A stretch of DNA of 64,000 nt from Vreelandella piezotolerans (lineage in GTDB: Bacteria; Pseudomonadota; Gammaproteobacteria; Pseudomonadales; Halomonadaceae): contig NZ_CP048602.1 in assembly GCF_012427705.1 (NCBI RefSeq), positions 868,001 through 932,000 of the forward strand, given 5' to 3'. The notes beneath the pieces were generated by a model, which searched no databases, was not told where the DNA came from, and saw only the letters and a program-made list of their open reading frames with translations. The number at the start of each line of letters is the position of its first letter. Positions within the stretch are counted from its first letter, which is position 1. The position numbers and the translations under genes are program-made. This document shows, one piece after another, positions 45,471 through 53,082 of the stretch.

Positions 45471-45845
45471 CTAGCCTTCCACCCACACCTTATCTCCCTT
45501 GAAAGCGACGCGCCAAGTGCGCAGCTTTACCTCATCTTCTTCCAGGCATTGGCCATCCTCTAGGCGGAAGTGCTGTTTGTAGAGTGGCGAGGCCACGACG
45601 GGACTGCCTTTGATATCGCCGACGATGCCACGGGCAATCACATGGGCCTTCGAGAAAGGGTCGAAGTGATCCAGGGCATAGAGCTCTTGGGCGTGGCCGG
45701 GCAGATAGAACAGCGCCACTTGGGCTGGGCCTGCCGATGTCGTCAGCCATGCGGCGACGCCGGAAAACGCCACGAGGTCTGCTTTGGTGCAGAGCGGTTG
45801 CCAAGTAGCGTTGCGGTTCGTTGGTTTGAGTGCGGTGGCGGTCAT
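45471..45845 (-). CDS. nirD: Nitrite reductase small subunit NirD
   Basis: A 124-residue cytoplasmic protein with a Rieske-like fold, partner of NirB in assimilatory NADH-nitrite reductase. Matching segments are WQPLCTKADLV, VALFYLPG, LYALDHFDPFSKAHVIARGIVGD and SPLYKQHFRLEDGQCL. As in other NirD proteins the Rieske cysteines are absent. It follows nirB on the same strand. GAGG is 6 bases before the ATG at 45845; a GTG at 45869, five bases after the nirB stop, is an alternative start. Confidence 0.9.
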   Translation of the reverse strand: MTATALKPTNRNATWQPLCTKADLVAFSGVAAWLTTSAGPAQVALFYLPGHAQELYALDHFDPFSKAHVIARGIVGDIKGSPVVASPLYKQHFRLEDGQCLEEDEVKLRTWRVAFKGDKVWVEG

Positions 45846-45873
45846 GGTCATCCTCGATTCGGTGGTCACTGGA

Positions 45874-48414
45874 TTACGCAGGGCGGAGCTGGCCGCGCTC
45901 CGACGTCATGATGATGGAGGGGTCGGGCCGCGTATCGTTGACGAAACTTCTAAAGCGCTTGAGCTTTTCGGGGTCGCTGATGGCGTTGGCCCACTCACAC
46001 TGGTAGCTCTCCACCACGTGCTGCATTTGACGCTCCAGCTCGTCACCTAGGCCTAGGCTATCCTCCAGAATCACTTCTTTGAGGTAGTCGAGGCCACCTT
46101 CCAGGTTTTCCCGCCATACCGAGGTGCGCTGTAAGCGGTCGGCCGTACGCACGTAGAACATCAAAAAGCGGTCGATGGTGCGGTAGAGCTGTTCGTCATC
46201 CAAATCGGTGGCGAAGAGTTCCGCATGGCGCGGGCGCATGCCGCCGTTGCCGCACACGTAGAGGTTCCAGCCGTTTTCGGTGGCGATGATGCCGATGTCT
46301 TTGCTCTGCGCTTCGGCGCACTCCCGGGTACAGCCGGAAACGCCAAACTTGATCTTGTGCGGGGCACGCAGGCCCTTGTAGCGGTTCTCCAATTGAATCG
46401 CCATGCCCACGCTGTCCTGCACGCCGTAGCGACACCAGGTACTGCCGACGCAAGATTTCACGGTGCGCAGCGATTTGCCGTAAGCGTGGCCCGTCTCGAA
46501 GCCCGCCTCGATCAGTTCGCCCCAAATGGCCGGCAGGTCTTCCAGCCGCGCGCCGAACAGGTCGATGCGCTGCCCGCCGGTAATCTTGGTGTAGAGCTGA
46601 TATTTCTGGGCCACCTGCCCGAGAACGACCAGTTTATCCGGGGTGATTTCACCGCCGGCAATGCGCGGCACCACCGAATAGGTGCCGTTTTTCTGCATAT
46701 TGGCCATGAAGGTGTCGTTGGTATCCTGCAGCGGCACGTGGGCGGCATCGGTGATCGGCTCGTTGAAGCAGGAGGCGAGAATCGAGGCCACCGCCGGTTT
46801 GCAGATATCGCAGCCTAGTTGGTGCGTCTCGGCGTTGCCGTGCTTCTCCATCAGCTCGCTGAACGTCTTGATGCCTTCGACACGCACGATGTCGTAAAGC
46901 CCTTGGCGGGTATGGGCGAAGTGCTCGCAGATCGATGTATCCACCTCGACGCCGCGGGCCTCCAGTTCGTGGTCCACCACGCTTTTGAGCAGCGCCGCGC
47001 AGCCGCCGCAGCCGGTACTGGCTTTGGTCGCGCCTTTGACGCTGCCAAGATCCGCCGCGCCCGCGTCGATGGCGCTGCAGATGCTGCCTTTGGTCACGTT
47101 ATGGCAGGAGCAAATCATCGCCGTGTCCGGCAGGGCATCCGGCCCCAGGGCTGGGGCGGCACCGCTTTGTTGCGGCAAAATGAGCGATGCGGGTTCCTTA
47201 GGCAGCTCGATACCGTTGGCGTAGTACTGCAGCAGCGTGTCATACACACTGTTATCGCCTACCAGCATGGCGCCCAGCAGCTTCTTACCGTCGCCCGTGA
47301 CGACCAGTTTGCGGTAGACCTGGGTGAGCGGGTCGAGGTAGCGGAACATGCGGGCACCAGGGTGTTGGTTGCCGTGGGCATCGCCAATGGAGCCGACATC
47401 CACACCCAGCAGCTTGAGTTTGGTGCTCATGTCGGCACCGCTAAAACGGTCATCGCCCCCCGTTAGCGTGGCGACGGCCGTTTTGGCCATTTGGTAACCA
47501 GGGGCGACGAGGCCGAAGATACTCTGATTCCATAGCGCTACCTCGCCAATGGCGAGGATGTTCGGGTCGCTGGTGCGGCACTGGTCGTCGATCACCACGC
47601 CGCCGCGTTCGCCGATGCTCAAACCGCACTCTCGGGCGAGGCTGTCTTGCGGGCGAATACCGGCGGAGAAGACGATCAAGTCGGTTTCCAGCACCTTGTC
47701 GTCTTGGAAAACCATGCGTAGGCGGCTGGTGTCGCCGGATTCGATACGTTGAGTCGCACGCTCGGTGAGGACCTGAACGCCCAGGGCTTCGATTTTCTCT
47801 CTGAGCAGCTCGCCGCCTTCGCTATCCACTTGCATGGGCATCAAACGCGGGGCGAATTCCACCACGGCGGTGTCCAGGTTCAGGCCGCGCAGCGCGTTGG
47901 CGGCTTCCAGGCCGAGCAAGCCGCCACCGACCACCACGCCGTTGGTGGCGTTTTTGGCCGCTGCCTGAATGGCATCCAGATCATCCAGGGTGCGGTAGAC
48001 CAAACAGCCGTCGCTGTCGTTGCCGGGAATGGGGGGCACAAAGGGGAAAGAGCCGGTCGCCAGCACTAACTGGTCGTAGGAGTAGCGCCCCTGGGCAGTC
48101 ATCACCACCTGCGCTTCGCGGTCTATCGCCGTGACGGCTTCACCGCTGCGTAGTCGAATGCCGTGGCTGCGGTAGTAATCGGCATCACACAGGGCCAGCG
48201 ACTGTGCGTCGCGCCCGCTAAAGTACTCGGATAAATGCACCCGGTCGTAAGCGCGATGGCGCTCTTCGCCAAAGATAGTGACGTCAAACCCGGCCAGCGC
48301 GCCGCTTTCCACCAGCTGTTCGGCAAAATGGTGGCCGACCATGCCGTTACCTACAATGATCAGCGTTTGTTTGTTGGAAGACGTAGTGGGAGTAGACATT
48401 GTGTGATTCACCAT
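45874..48414 (-). CDS. nirB: Nitrite reductase large subunit NirB
   Basis: An 846-residue enzyme that reduces nitrite to ammonium with NAD(P)H. The FAD/NAD domain has LIIVGNGMVGHHFAE and GVVVGGGLLGLEAANAL; a BFD-like [2Fe-2S] domain has ICSCHNVTKG...STGCGGC (around residue 430-475); the siroheme/[4Fe-4S] reductase part has GSTWCRYGVQD and GVSGCTRECAEAQSKD, carrying the cluster cysteines. The start is an ATG 2 bases after the stop of the preceding reductase gene with GAGG upstream, so the two are probably coupled; an ATG at 48399 is an alternative. The siroheme comes from the methyltransferase gene at 53042. Confidence 0.93.
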   Translation of the reverse strand: MVNHTMSTPTTSSNKQTLIIVGNGMVGHHFAEQLVESGALAGFDVTIFGEERHRAYDRVHLSEYFSGRDAQSLALCDADYYRSHGIRLRSGEAVTAIDREAQVVMTAQGRYSYDQLVLATGSFPFVPPIPGNDSDGCLVYRTLDDLDAIQAAAKNATNGVVVGGGLLGLEAANALRGLNLDTAVVEFAPRLMPMQVDSEGGELLREKIEALGVQVLTERATQRIESGDTSRLRMVFQDDKVLETDLIVFSAGIRPQDSLARECGLSIGERGGVVIDDQCRTSDPNILAIGEVALWNQSIFGLVAPGYQMAKTAVATLTGGDDRFSGADMSTKLKLLGVDVGSIGDAHGNQHPGARMFRYLDPLTQVYRKLVVTGDGKKLLGAMLVGDNSVYDTLLQYYANGIELPKEPASLILPQQSGAAPALGPDALPDTAMICSCHNVTKGSICSAIDAGAADLGSVKGATKASTGCGGCAALLKSVVDHELEARGVEVDTSICEHFAHTRQGLYDIVRVEGIKTFSELMEKHGNAETHQLGCDICKPAVASILASCFNEPITDAAHVPLQDTNDTFMANMQKNGTYSVVPRIAGGEITPDKLVVLGQVAQKYQLYTKITGGQRIDLFGARLEDLPAIWGELIEAGFETGHAYGKSLRTVKSCVGSTWCRYGVQDSVGMAIQLENRYKGLRAPHKIKFGVSGCTRECAEAQSKDIGIIATENGWNLYVCGNGGMRPRHAELFATDLDDEQLYRTIDRFLMFYVRTADRLQRTSVWRENLEGGLDYLKEVILEDSLGLGDELERQMQHVVESYQCEWANAISDPEKLKRFRSFVNDTRPDPSIIMTSERGQLRPA

Positions 48415-48416
48415 AG

Positions 48417-49724
48417 CTAAGCCGCCTCACGGGGGAGAGATAAAGAGGGTGACGAGGTGTCGAGATGCGCATCGAGCGCCGTTTGGGCATCGGTGGCGCC
48501 AAACAGAAGCAGGTGGCGGCACGCGGTTAAATCGGTCGCGGCCAGCGCCTGCTCGAAGTACCAGGGGCCGTGGCGGGTATCGCCATACAGCACCGCGCCG
48601 ACGAGGCGGCCTTGCTGGAGCAGTAAGCGGCAGTAGTCGCCGGTTTCTGGGTCTTGGTAGCGAAGTTCTTCGTGCTTGGCGGCGGCCTCGGTGGGGCCAA
48701 AGGCAAACAGGCTGACACCGCTGACCTTGAGTTTGGTGGCCGTGGGGGCTTCTTGATACGCCGCGGGCGTTTCACCACACAGCACGGCGGCCAGCACGTC
48801 CACCTGCCGCCAAATCGGTTCCACCAGCCCGTAAGTGTGCTGCTCGAACTGGCAGCATTCGCCTAGCGCATGGATGTGGGCGTCGGAAGTGGTCAGGTGG
48901 CCGTCCACGACGATGGCGCGATCGCAGACGAGTCCACTCTGCTGTCCTAGCTCCGCATTCGGGGTAATGCCCGCCGCCACGATGATGCTATCGGCAGGAA
49001 GCTTTCGGCCATCGCTCAGGGTGACCGACTGCACCTGTCCTCGACCGTTATCTTCCAAGGCGGCGAGCGATGCGCCGGTTTCAATGAGGATGCCGCGTTC
49101 GCGCAGCGTGGCTTCCAGCAACTGAGCGGCGGTGGTGTCTAGCTGACGGTTCATCAACCGATGACTGCGCTGCAAAACGCTGACGGTGAGCGCGCGTCCG
49201 CCCCGTTTGCGCAGCCCTTCGGCGGCTTCCAGCCCAAGCAAGCCGCCGCCAATCACCACGGCGTTGCCGCCTTGCCGAGCAATGGCTTCCAAGGCGCTGA
49301 CGTCGCGCAGGTCGCGAAACGTGTGAACACCGTCGAGCGTGATGCCGGGCACCGCTGGCAGCGCGGGGCGCGAGCCAGTGGCCAAGACCAAGCGGTCATA
49401 GCGTAACGTGTTGCCGCGATGTGTGATGAGCAGGCGGCGTTCGCGGTCGATGGCGGTCACGCGGTCGCCAAGTATCAGCGTGACGTCGTTATCGGCGTAC
49501 CAGGAGGCGTCTTGCAGAGTGAGCGCCTCGGGCGCCAGTTCGCCTGCCAATAAAGGGGAGAGCAAAATACGGTTATAGGCAGGCACCGGTTCCTCACCCA
49601 CCACCGTAATGCGGTGGGGGCGCTGGGGATGTCGAACCAGCGCGTCGAGCAGTCGCTGGCTCGCCATGCCGTTACCGATGATGACGAGGTGGTCTGTCTG
49701 TGAGCACCGGGAAGCGATTTCCAT
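48417..49724 (-). CDS. FAD-dependent NAD(P)H reductase of the nitrate assimilation cluster (NasB/NasC-like)
   Basis: A 435-residue flavoprotein homologous to the N-terminal half of NirB: LVIIGNGMASQRLLDAL near the start, AYNRILLSPLLAGE, VLATGSRPALPAVPG, and the NAD-binding AVVIGGGLLGLEAAEGL. It lacks iron-sulfur and siroheme parts. In Klebsiella-type clusters a similar FAD protein passes electrons from NADH to the nitrate reductase NasA; that role is likely here. AAGGAG is 6 bases before the ATG at 49724. It heads the operon with nirB and nirD and is preceded by a leader terminator. Sequence similarity to NirB suggests a duplication, not tested. Confidence 0.83.
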   Translation of the reverse strand: MEIASRCSQTDHLVIIGNGMASQRLLDALVRHPQRPHRITVVGEEPVPAYNRILLSPLLAGELAPEALTLQDASWYADNDVTLILGDRVTAIDRERRLLITHRGNTLRYDRLVLATGSRPALPAVPGITLDGVHTFRDLRDVSALEAIARQGGNAVVIGGGLLGLEAAEGLRKRGGRALTVSVLQRSHRLMNRQLDTTAAQLLEATLRERGILIETGASLAALEDNGRGQVQSVTLSDGRKLPADSIIVAAGITPNAELGQQSGLVCDRAIVVDGHLTTSDAHIHALGECCQFEQHTYGLVEPIWRQVDVLAAVLCGETPAAYQEAPTATKLKVSGVSLFAFGPTEAAAKHEELRYQDPETGDYCRLLLQQGRLVGAVLYGDTRHGPWYFEQALAATDLTACRHLLLFGATDAQTALDAHLDTSSPSLSLPREAA

Positions 49725-49759: not shown

Positions 49760-49810
49760 AATAAAAACGCCCCTGGCACAGCCCTCTCAAGAAGGGAGTG
49801 TCAGGGGCGT
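49760..49810 (-). terminator. Leader terminator (attenuator) of the reductase-nirBD operon
   Basis: On the minus strand ACGCCCCTG (from 49810) pairs with CAGGGGCGT (to 49767) and is followed by a T tract (TTTTTATTT), giving a textbook intrinsic terminator. It lies between the operon's upstream region and the first ATG, 36 bases before the start, so transcription must be allowed to pass for the operon to be expressed. Confidence 0.85.
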
Positions 49811-49859
49811 CGTTGCCCGTTGGCGTCGTCGATAACGCGCAGCAACCGCCGTTGGTTGC
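49805..49859 (-). promoter_or_regulatory. Candidate ANTAR-type antitermination dual hairpin
   Basis: On the minus strand, GCAACC-AACGGC-GGTTGC (49859-49842) is followed 23 bases later by GGGC-AACGAC-GCCC (49818-49805). Both loops are hexanucleotides with A at position 1 and G at position 4, the recognition feature of ANTAR RNA-binding proteins such as NasR and NasT. The 3' arm of the second hairpin is part of the terminator's 5' arm, so the structures are mutually exclusive. The second stem is only 4 bp and the linker is longer than I would expect, which lowers certainty. The ANTAR protein gene is not in this window. Confidence 0.65.
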
Positions 49860-49925
49860 CGAACTGTCTTATCCTAGTGGTCAGCAAAAAGCCCGCCAGC
49901 TCTTGCCGCAGGTGGATTTAATTCA

Positions 49926-50130: not shown

Positions 50131-50147
50131 TGGGCGCAGGGTTTGCA
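50131..50147 (+). promoter_or_regulatory. Candidate sigma-54 promoter of nasA
   Basis: TGGGCGCAGGGTTTGCA has GG and GC at the required 12-base distance (50133 and 50145) and TTGCA as in the sigma-54 -12 element. The -24 box is imperfect (GGGCGC for TGGCAC). Transcription would start near 50158, giving a leader of about 200 bases. Confidence 0.5.
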
Positions 50148-50277
50148 TTTGTTCAAGTAACAAGGAACAACGGCTCAGTGCAGGGTCTTTGCTCATAACG
50201 ATCACAACCATAAATTGCGTCGAACAATACCAACGGCAGCAAATCACTGATGAGTACGGCACCGGGTAAATGGTGCC

Positions 50278-50339
50278 CCTGAGACAACGGCGTCCAGGCA
50301 GGCTTCTTTTGAAGCTGGCTTGGGCGCTTTTTGCTTTTT
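50278..50339 (+). promoter_or_regulatory. nasA leader: hexaloop hairpin overlapping an intrinsic terminator
   Basis: CCTG-A-GAC (50278-50285) pairs with GTC-CAGG (50292-50298), one bulged A, around hexaloop AACGGC, the same A1/G4 hexaloop as in the minus leader. Its 3' arm lies within the 5' arm of a strong terminator: 50290-50306 pairs with 50311-50327 (17 bp, one mismatch, TTTT loop) and a T tract follows. Formation of one excludes the other. A hairpin at 50258-50277 (GGCACC/GGTGCC, 8-base loop) sits where the first ANTAR hairpin should be but lacks the A1/G4 loop. The nasA ribosome-binding site follows after 7 bases. Confidence 0.7.
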
Positions 50340-50358: not shown

Positions 50359-53082
50359 ATGCCACAGGTCAATCGGCTCGCCCGAACCACCTGCCCCTAT
50401 TGCGGCGTCGGCTGCGGCGTGACTGCAACGCTTGAAAGCGGCCAGCTCATTGCCGTCGAGGGGGACCGCGAGCACCCAGCCAACTACGGCCGCCTATGTG
50501 TGAAAGGCACCGCGCTGCACGAAACGCTCGGCGCACAGGGGCGCTTGCTGATGCCCCGCGTGGATGGACAGGAGGTCTCCTGGGAGCAAGCACTCACCGT
50601 CACCGCCGAACGCTTGCAGGCCCAGCGCACTGCCCATGGCCCGCAGACGGTGGCGGCGTACTTATCCGGCCAGCTGCTGACCGAAGATTATTACGTCGCC
50701 AACAAGCTGTTCAAAGGTTTCTTGGGCACTCCGCACCTGGATACCAACTCGCGGCTCTGCATGGCGTCCGCCGTGGCGGGCTACAAGCGCGCCTTTGGGG
50801 CCGATGCGGTACCCTGCAGTTATGAAGACCTCGAAGAGGCGGAGCTGGTAGTGCTGGTGGGGTCCAACCTTGCCTGGAATCATCCGGTGCTCTATCAGCG
50901 TTTGAAGATAGCCAAAGAGCGCAACCCGTTGATGCGGGTCGTGGTGATCGACCCCCGCGTGACCGACACCTGTGAAATGGCCGATCTTTACCTGGGTATT
51001 CGTCCGGGTAGCGATGCGTACCTGTTCAACGGGCTGCTGGCGTGGATGGACGACCATAACCGATTGGATGCCGTGTACTTAGAACGCCACACCGAGGGGT
51101 TAGACGACGCGCTGGGCGCTGCCAAGCAGAGTGCAGGCAGCGTGGAAGCCGTTGCTCACGAATGTGACGTGGATCCTGAACGCCTGGAAACCTTCTATTA
51201 CTGGTTTGCCAGCCAGCTCCACGTGGTCACGCTCTACTCTCAGGGGGTGAATCAATCCTCAAGCGGTACCGACAAGTGCAACGCGATCATCAACTGCCAT
51301 CTAGCGGGCGGGAAAATCGGCCTGCCGGGGGCGGGGCCGTTTTCGATCACTGGCCAGCCCAACGCCATGGGCGGGCGGGAAGTAGGCGGGTTGGCCAATC
51401 AGCTGGCGGCGCATATGGATTACCACACCCCGGGCGCCCGTGAGTTGGTTAGCCGCTTCTGGACTACCCAGCACTTAACGCCCGTACTACCGGACGCCCC
51501 GGGTTACAAGGCGGTGGAGCTCTTCGATGCCATCGAGCGTGGCGAGATTAGCGCCCTGTGGGTGATGGCCACCAATCCAGCAGTGAGTATGCCGGATGGG
51601 GAGAAAGTGCGCCGCGCGCTGGCAAAATGCCCGCTGGTGATCGTCTCGGAGTGCGTCGCCAATACCGACCTGCTGCCCTTTGCGGATATCGTGCTGCCCG
51701 CGTCGGGCTGGTCGGAGAAGGATGGCACGGTGACCAACTCGGAGCGGCGCATTTCCCGCCAGCGGGGGTTGCTGCCGGCCCCTGGCGAGGCCAAGCACGA
51801 CTGGTGGATACTCTGCGAAGTAGCAAAACGCTTAGGGTGGGGCGAAGCCTTCGATTACACCCAGCCATGGGAGATTTTCGATGAGCACGCGCGCCTTTCA
51901 GGCTATGAAAATAGCGGCGATACCCAGCGGCTATTCGACATCTCAGGGCTGGCAGGCCTGGGCCAATCGGCTTATGATGCGCTCGCTCCGATCCAGTGGC
52001 CCGTGACTCAGCAGGCCCCCCGTGGAACGGCAAGGCTGTTCGAAGATGGCCGGTTTGCGACGCCGAACGGTCGCGCGAAACTGCTGCCGATTACGCCGCG
52101 CCCGCCCGCGCAGGCGCTGAGCGACGACTACCCGCTGCGTTTGAATACCGGGCGTATACGGGATCAGTGGCATACTATGACGCGTACCGCCCGTGCGCCG
52201 CGCTTGATGAACCACCGCGCCGAACCCTTCATCGAGCTGCACCCGGAGGATGCCGCCCGGGCTGGCTTGACGGATCAAGGCTTGGCGAGGTTGACCGCTG
52301 CCGCCGGGGAGTACCGTGGGCGGGTTCGGGTCTCCCACGCCCAACGCCGAGGCGAGGTGTTCGTGCCGATGCACTGGACCGACTGCTTTACCAAGCAGGG
52401 GCGCAGCGGCGCATTGATTCAGGGGTATACGGATCCGCTCTCCGGACAGCCGGAAGCCAAACAGGGGGCGGTGGCGGTGAGCAAACTTCTCGCTGCGTGG
52501 CAGGCGACGCTGCTGCTCGCCAACGGGTTGGATGCGCCATCGTCGCCGTGGTGTCGCAGCGATTACTGGGCGCGGATCCCGATGGCCAGCTGCACGCGGT
52601 GGCAGCTGGCGGATAGTCAGCCGGTCGCGGATTGGCTGGCGCAGGTGGCGGCGTGGTGCGGCGTGCCCGCTTCGCTGTGGTGTGACGACCCGGCAACCGG
52701 CAGGCTGCGGGCAGCGGGCGTGGTGAACGGTCGGCTTTGCTGGTGGCTGATGGTGGGCCCCCCCGACGAACTGCCCGGGCTAGCCTGGCTTGAAGCGCGC
52801 TTCAATGACGCTACCCTGGAGACACGGCACCGTAGACGCCTGCTGGCCGGATGCGACGATGGCGCTGTCGATACGGGGCCGGTGGTGTGTAGCTGCCACC
52901 AGGTCGGCCAAGCCTCTATCGTCAAGGCGATCCATGCAGGCGATACCAGCGTCGAAGCGTTAGGCGCACGATTGGCCTGCGGCACCCAGTGCGGCAGCTG
53001 CCTACCCGAACTAAAAGCGATACTCGAAGAGGAGCGGCCTCATGCGCGCGCTAAGCAAACAGCTAACACAGAAGTGGCCTGA
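50359..53082 (+). CDS. nasA: Assimilatory nitrate reductase catalytic subunit NasA
   Basis: A 907-residue cytoplasmic molybdopterin enzyme that reduces nitrate to nitrite. The N-terminal [4Fe-4S] motif is TTCPYCGVGCGV with the fourth cysteine in GRLCVKG; molybdopterin motifs include NSRLCMASAVAGYKRAFG (cysteine as probable Mo ligand), GSNLAWNHPV and GPFSITGQPNAMGGREVGG. A C-terminal BFD-like [2Fe-2S] domain (VVCSCHQVGQ ... CGTQCGSC) receives electrons, as in Klebsiella NasA. GGGAGGA is 7 bases before the ATG at 50359. It is followed, with a 41-base overlap, by the siroheme methyltransferase gene. Confidence 0.94.
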   Translation: MPQVNRLARTTCPYCGVGCGVTATLESGQLIAVEGDREHPANYGRLCVKGTALHETLGAQGRLLMPRVDGQEVSWEQALTVTAERLQAQRTAHGPQTVAAYLSGQLLTEDYYVANKLFKGFLGTPHLDTNSRLCMASAVAGYKRAFGADAVPCSYEDLEEAELVVLVGSNLAWNHPVLYQRLKIAKERNPLMRVVVIDPRVTDTCEMADLYLGIRPGSDAYLFNGLLAWMDDHNRLDAVYLERHTEGLDDALGAAKQSAGSVEAVAHECDVDPERLETFYYWFASQLHVVTLYSQGVNQSSSGTDKCNAIINCHLAGGKIGLPGAGPFSITGQPNAMGGREVGGLANQLAAHMDYHTPGARELVSRFWTTQHLTPVLPDAPGYKAVELFDAIERGEISALWVMATNPAVSMPDGEKVRRALAKCPLVIVSECVANTDLLPFADIVLPASGWSEKDGTVTNSERRISRQRGLLPAPGEAKHDWWILCEVAKRLGWGEAFDYTQPWEIFDEHARLSGYENSGDTQRLFDISGLAGLGQSAYDALAPIQWPVTQQAPRGTARLFEDGRFATPNGRAKLLPITPRPPAQALSDDYPLRLNTGRIRDQWHTMTRTARAPRLMNHRAEPFIELHPEDAARAGLTDQGLARLTAAAGEYRGRVRVSHAQRRGEVFVPMHWTDCFTKQGRSGALIQGYTDPLSGQPEAKQGAVAVSKLLAAWQATLLLANGLDAPSSPWCRSDYWARIPMASCTRWQLADSQPVADWLAQVAAWCGVPASLWCDDPATGRLRAAGVVNGRLCWWLMVGPPDELPGLAWLEARFNDATLETRHRRRLLAGCDDGAVDTGPVVCSCHQVGQASIVKAIHAGDTSVEALGARLACGTQCGSCLPELKAILEEERPHARAKQTANTEVA

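Follow-up and report, generated by a model that had tools for sequence, protein, structure and literature searches.

A probable NasR-controlled antitermination leader with a variable hairpin linker upstream of the reductase–nirB–nirD operon of Vreelandella piezotolerans

The window analysed here, a 64-kb stretch of the Vreelandella piezotolerans genome (3.95 Mb in a single contig, estimated to be 100% complete), contains the two divergent halves of a nitrate-assimilation locus (Table 1). On the minus strand, a gene for a NirB-N-terminal-like FAD/NAD(P) reductase with a Rubredoxin_C domain precedes nirB and nirD, which encode the large and small subunits of nitrite reductase. The product of the first gene is probably the electron-transfer subunit of the assimilatory nitrate reductase. 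On the plus strand lies nasA, for the catalytic subunit of that enzyme, followed by a cobA-type uroporphyrinogen-III methyltransferase gene. Judged by the first-gene protein, the closest named relatives are Vreelandella lutescens, V. aquamarina and V. lionensis, with 89–91% identity. About 630 bp separate the start codons of the reductase gene and nasA, and the leaders of both operons fall inside this interval.

Read 5′ to 3′ on the minus strand, the leader of the reductase–nirB–nirD operon runs from a sigma54-type element through a first hairpin (P1), a linker hairpin, the four bases CAAC, a second hairpin (P2) and an intrinsic terminator to the ATG of the first gene. The GG and GC of the upstream element are 12 apart, the spacing of a sigma54 −24/−12 promoter, and from its position the transcript is expected to start at about position 49872. 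The initial annotation had described two hairpins with the hexaloops AACGGC and AACGAC, both with A in position 1 and G in position 4 (A1/G4), and direct reading, a script and the coordinates all confirm this; each loop is also closed by a C:G pair. It had further stated that the second hairpin shares bases with a strong intrinsic terminator. This holds as well: the 3′ arm of P2 is part of the 5′ arm of the terminator, so that the two helices are mutually exclusive. The distance from the terminator to the first gene, given there as 36 bases, is 38 nt when counted from the end of the T-run to the ATG. Between P1 and P2 we find a third, small hairpin that the annotation lacked. Folding of the 161-nt leader gives a z of −2.58.

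Table 1 Features of the nitrate-assimilation locus, in window coordinates
Feature	Position	Strand	Sequence or remark
nirD, nitrite reductase small subunit	45471..45869	minus	
nirB, nitrite reductase large subunit	45874..48414	minus	start codon at 48414 or slightly downstream
First gene, FAD/NAD(P) reductase with Rubredoxin_C domain	48417..49724	minus	ATG at 49724
Intrinsic terminator	49810-49767 (T-run 49767-49763)	minus	overlaps P2
P2 hairpin (antiterminator)	49818-49805 (loop 49814-49809)	minus	GGGC-AACGAC-GCCC; reading, script and conservation
Linker hairpin	49838-49823	minus	GCGTT-ATCGAC-GACGC; between P1 and P2
P1 hairpin	49861-49840 (loop 49853-49848)	minus	CGGCAACC-AACGGC-GGTTGCTG; direct reading and script
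Sigma54-type −24/−12 element	49883..49898 (TGGC 49898-49895, TTGC 49887-49884)	minus	TGGC-N7-TTGC; upstream of P1
Sigma54-like element upstream of nasA	50131..50147	plus	GG and GC 12 apart; similar sequence visible in aligned relatives
P1-position hairpin, nasA leader	50258..50277	plus	GGCACC-GGGTAAAT-GGTGCC; loop without A1/G4
P2 hairpin, nasA leader	50278..50298 (loop 50286-50291)	plus	CCTG(A)GAC-AACGGC-GTCCAGG; scan and alignment
Intrinsic terminator, nasA leader	50290..50332	plus	with T-run; scan
nasA, assimilatory nitrate reductase catalytic subunit	50359..53082	plus	best models under their own cut-offs

For comparison we took the regions upstream of the first gene from 70 of the 71 genomes of the family (Halomonadaceae) that have an orthologue of it, and from 66 of the 68 matching genomes of the genus group Vreelandella/Halomonas (hereafter the genus), two partial ones being dropped; nine leaders are common to both sets, giving 127 overall. 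These were scanned for hexaloop hairpins that overlap a terminator, with the other letter pairs at loop positions 1 and 4 and dinucleotide shuffles as controls. All 66 genus leaders contain an A1/G4 P2–terminator, compared with 9 of 660 shuffles, and no other letter pair is found at P2 in more than 2 of the 66. The closing pair of P2 is C:G in every one of them. Over the whole set, A/G occurs in 108 of 127 leaders and each of the 15 other letter pairs in 0 to 9. A stricter form of the finder misses weak T-runs, extra G–U pairs and G1 loops; family counts come from a relaxed version. When both strands of the window are searched, two A1/G4 P2–terminator matches emerge, namely the reductase-operon leader and the divergent nasA leader. 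The upstream TGGC-N7-TTGC element precedes P1 in all genus leaders (66/66, against 2 of 1,320 shuffled stretches).

The P1 motif, CCAA(A/C/T)GG-N-GG or a variant, is present in 61 of the 66 genus leaders; four more have a P1 that is recognizable by eye, with AACGAR loops, and one is without. Because the motif itself includes A1/G4 and the closing pair, this count is no independent test of them. An independent scan, open to every hexaloop upstream of P2 whose stem has five or more pairs, returns A/G in 47 of 66 genus leaders (other letter pairs in at most 6 each; A/G in 11 of 1,320 shuffles). The conservation of the hexaloops in related leaders, on which the initial annotation had staked its reading, is thus borne out, throughout the genus for P2 and at this independent count for P1. 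One genus leader (L095) has P2 and the terminator with no recognizable P1, and its genome still carries an ANTAR gene.

In an alignment of 55 leaders, the proportion of cells that are paired is 97.4% for P1, 99.5% for P2 and 100% for the terminator. Two pairs of the P1 helix are changed on both sides. Such double changes affect 16 cells in P1, linker and P2 taken jointly, compared with 7.4 in shuffles, and 8 cells in the terminator, compared with 1.1; counted by pair rather than by cell, double changes in these 55 leaders are no more numerous than in shuffles (4 against 3.8; 292 of 500). At the terminator pair that includes position 6 of the P2 loop, C is replaced by A and its partner G by U (C–G to A–U) in eight leaders, and these compensatory changes may go back to a single inherited event.

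Nine leaders of the family have the P2 loop GAAGAC, with G in position 1. Their P1 loops are canonical by eye. As naturally occurring departures from the A1 rule, these leaders come mostly from genomes with a short, NasT-sized ANTAR frame.

The initial annotation had suggested scoring the leader with a covariance model of ANTAR RNAs. In Rfam release 15 the window leader has no match at the gathering thresholds, so a model of our own (R1) was used, which scores it at 98.8 bits as one of its training sequences. Two Rfam families give weak scores with the window, P11 (RF00625; 14.3 bits, gathering score 70) and narK RNA (RF03032; 19 bits, gathering score 43.2). P11 is a Pseudomonas sRNA in its Rfam description, and on that basis we call its matching loci, which were taken from a second family, Pseudomonas-type. 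Like the window leader, these loci have a sigma54-like element, P1 (for example CCTTC-AACGAA-GAAGG), a middle hairpin and a P2 (GGAC-AAAGGC-GTCC) that overlaps the terminator. In 63 of 78 loci a middle hairpin of the form CCCG-N6-CGGG lies between P1 and P2, as found with a pattern that fixes P2, requires this hairpin 3–5 nt upstream of it (not counting one optional A/G) and leaves the middle loop free. That loop is A1/G4 in 58 of the 63 loci and in 11 of 16 distinct loops, whereas the linker loop of the genus to which the window belongs is not conserved; we rejected the ATCGAC of the window as a genus-wide third A1/G4 site, since ATCAAC or a tetraloop takes its place in close relatives. Eleven other P11 loci are of another type, with no middle hairpin. 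The Pseudomonas nirBD leader is reportedly a target of NasT, in work by Romeo and colleagues from 2012.

The narK RNA loci show a related architecture. Eleven of the 13 placeable ones have P1 and P2 with A1/G4 loops, followed by a terminator-like hairpin and a T-run (three more matches, at contig ends, are left out of this count). By eye their linkers are shorter than that of the window leader, and the Rfam model pairs P1 only. A sigma54-like element stands before P1 in several of them. The narK motif or narK RNA was not found paired with ANTAR in the open-access papers searched, which is weak evidence of novelty. The same grade applies to a third ANTAR hairpin, of which we found no description in the titles and abstract openings of the matches listed, with subscription papers outside the scope of that search.

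The linker between P1 and P2 is 21 nt long in the window. It falls within the range of 2–25 nt that serves as a curation filter in the relevant passage of PMC8164766 and outside the 5–12 nt of the eut leaders as they are described in part of PMC3369931. Spacing matters for EutV, according to the passages on linker length in PMC3369931 and PMC8934654: induction drops drastically with a 14-nt linker, and the addition of 20 nt abolishes antitermination. Measured from the sixth pair of P1, the 47 distinct linkers of the genus are 12–63 nt long. In the 61 leaders that could be parsed, the P1 and P2 loops are 28 to 79 nt apart and 28 linkers exceed 25 nt.

When these linkers are folded alone, 32 of the 47 are left with 5–7 exterior bases, 5 with 2–4 and 10 with 10–22; the longest, of 63 nt, has 7. 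The mean is 7.9 exterior bases, compared with 11.5 in shuffles. With the set thinned to 19 clusters, linker folds are the more stable (Wilcoxon test against shuffles, p 0.0004) and the number of exterior bases is lower (p 0.0096), whereas stretches of equal length upstream of P1 do not differ from their shuffles (p 0.65 and 0.47, respectively). From these folding statistics and the spacing sensitivity of EutV we propose that folding preserves distance. We hold with moderate confidence that the folded linker hairpin would keep the two binding loops close together despite the length of the linker sequence.

The leader could also be an ANTAR target in which the linker hairpin is incidental, with NasR so loose in its spacing that any linker of 10–60 nt works. 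The linker helix lends this reading some weight, being paired in 82% of cells, with its five pairs failing in 4 to 14 of the 55 rows and with covariation not above that of shuffles (double changes in 4 cells, compared with 3.3). One member of the genus has a plain, unfolded linker of 12 nt, and some linkers of 21–50 nt fold poorly. The other Halomonadaceae genera have plain linkers of 6–13 nt, or P1 candidates 23–211 nt from P2 whose linkers are partly folded and have 1–28 exterior bases, often above the number in shuffles. Set against this are the better folding of the thinned clusters, which the control region does not share, the 5–7 exterior bases that most distinct linkers keep regardless of length, the middle hairpin just before P2 in many Pseudomonas-type leaders, and the strong response of EutV to lengthened linkers in the sources cited above. 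We consider an incidental linker a serious possibility, at somewhat less than even odds.

A putative regulator for the leader is encoded elsewhere in the genome, as the initial annotation had called for. The complete genome has one match to the ANTAR domain (PF03861), about 28 kb from the leader, in a gene directly downstream of one for a NarK-family transporter. Its 430-aa frame combines an NIT domain (PF08376; 170 bits, E 1.5e-49) with a C-terminal ANTAR domain (74 bits, E 8.4e-21), both over cut-off, and NIT with a C-terminal ANTAR in one protein is what defines a NasR. The best solved relative is 4AKK (E 1.8e-52, near full length), identified as Klebsiella NasR in the part of PMC7496416 that concerns it; NCBIfam has no match for the protein. 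The control first described as of the NasR/NasT type can accordingly be narrowed to NasR, and NasT dropped.

Gene and leader occur together. In the genus an ANTAR match is found in all 68 genomes that have the operon, compared with 1 of 14 that lack it. In the family all 64 ANTAR-bearing genomes have a P2–terminator leader (55 A1/G4 and 9 G1/G4), whereas of the six ANTAR-less genomes five are without such a leader and the sixth shows a match 391 nt upstream. The association has a Fisher p of 5e-7, with this last match counted as a leader and relatedness ignored. We judge that match (L026) spurious as a leader, so that all six genomes have the operon with neither a credible leader nor an ANTAR gene. 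They sit in two genera (two and four genomes), each of which has members keeping both gene and leader (one and four, respectively), and may therefore reflect as few as two co-losses rather than 70 independent events.

We conclude, with a probability of roughly 0.93 that leaves the role of the linker out of account, that this leader acts as a transcription attenuator controlled by NasR. The terminator might instead be plain and constitutive, yielding a short leader RNA or attenuated small RNA, with the hairpins there by chance and control exerted at the sigma54 promoter only. The six family genomes without a credible leader indicate that the operon can do without one, and in four of them a sigma54-like element, TGGCACG, lies upstream. 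The constitutive reading is nevertheless highly improbable, given that A1/G4 at P2 is universal in the genus and any other letter pair rare, that the leader is absent where the ANTAR gene is absent, and that the mutually exclusive helices of P2 and terminator are both conserved. Still more remote is control by a NasS/NasT pair in place of NasR: many relatives in other genera have a short ANTAR frame (about 200–270 aa, probably NasT by its length) that replaces a NasR-sized frame or stands beside it, but the sole ANTAR match in the complete genome of the window is the 430-aa NIT–ANTAR frame.

The divergent nasA operon has a P2–terminator leader of its own, and both halves of nitrate assimilation are for this reason probably under the same double lock. 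In 30 aligned genus loci the nasA P2 loop is AACGGC in 12 and AACGAC in 18, and a terminator comes next in all 30. The hairpin in the position of P1, GGCACC/GGTGCC or a variant, also recurs, with an A1/G4 loop in only 3 of the 30. Either P1 has a different role in the nasA leader or the loop rule is looser there. Three copies of the hexamer AACGGC lie within about 130 bases of this leader (at 50167, 50233 and 50286 on the plus strand), and of these just the third sits in a clear hairpin loop; the copy at 50167 recurs in some relatives.

Searching the genome with R1 returned, besides the leader itself, eight weaker matches of 12–24 bits, one being the leader's opposite strand. The top-scoring of the eight was rejected as a further target, as it resembles an ordinary terminator that follows a gene recognized by eye as gcvP-like. 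A search with short patterns did not discriminate (211 and 219 matches, against 127 and 127 for the reversed control), and no P2–terminator was found in the stretches scanned around narK–nasR.

The leader is a known kind of switch, and its unusual trait is the variable linker between P1 and P2. A close parallel is the nasF leader of Klebsiella oxytoca, which, in the account given in part of PMC7496416, has two hairpins, with A1/G4 loops and a terminal C:G pair, that precede an intrinsic terminator; the same source reports that NasR prefers a C:G closing pair in SELEX. Both systems pair a one-component NIT–ANTAR regulator with a two-hairpin A1/G4 RNA before a terminator. They differ in that the attenuator here precedes reductase–nirB–nirD and that the divergent nasA has a leader as well. 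The mostly hairpin-forming linkers of the Vreelandella/Halomonas leaders are a further feature of the system described here, with the linker of nasF itself outside the comparison. The two-hairpin antitermination logic is also that of the Enterococcus eut leaders and EutV, as far as the cited passages on EutV go; unlike the leaders described here, those have short linkers that do not tolerate lengthening.

In the mechanism that we propose, transcription would start from the sigma54 promoter under nitrogen limitation, presumably through NtrC. By default the nascent RNA would form the terminator, and RNA polymerase would halt before reductase–nirB–nirD. With nitrate or nitrite present, dimeric NasR, with its NIT sensor and ANTAR domain, would bind the hexaloops of P1 and P2, and P2, once closed, would withhold the 5′ arm of the terminator so that the operon is read. 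The linker would fold into its small hairpin and keep the two binding loops near each other. The antitermination logic and the response to nitrate are carried over from the parts of the NasR (PMC7496416) and EutV (PMC3369931, PMC8934654) studies that deal with them, and we infer binding, nitrate response and read-through at this leader by analogy; promoter activity and the part played by the linker hairpin are likewise predicted.

The Vreelandella/Halomonas leaders and the Pseudomonas-type NasR/NasT leaders could tentatively be placed in one three-hairpin subtype that runs from P1 through a middle hairpin and a few nucleotides to P2. Where eut leaders have a short linker, this subtype would have a folded one, variable in length, that keeps the two ANTAR loops at a working distance, and the middle hairpin of the Pseudomonas type, with an A1/G4 loop of its own, would be a third ANTAR contact. 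We think this grouping possible, though the odds are rather against it. The case for a third contact is suggestive only, because positions 3 and 5 of the middle loop are also fairly constant.

If the subtype is real, the spacing rule of EutV would be one of three-dimensional distance and not of nucleotide count, and searches that impose a limit on the linker would overlook part of the class. Within this one genus, linker length varies naturally between 12 and 63 nt while the loops and the regulator family stay the same, and most of the linkers fold to few free bases; the distance rule can thus be put to a direct test. That ANTAR gene and leader are absent together, and that the narK RNA and P11 loci have this architecture, would aid the annotation of nitrate-assimilation control.
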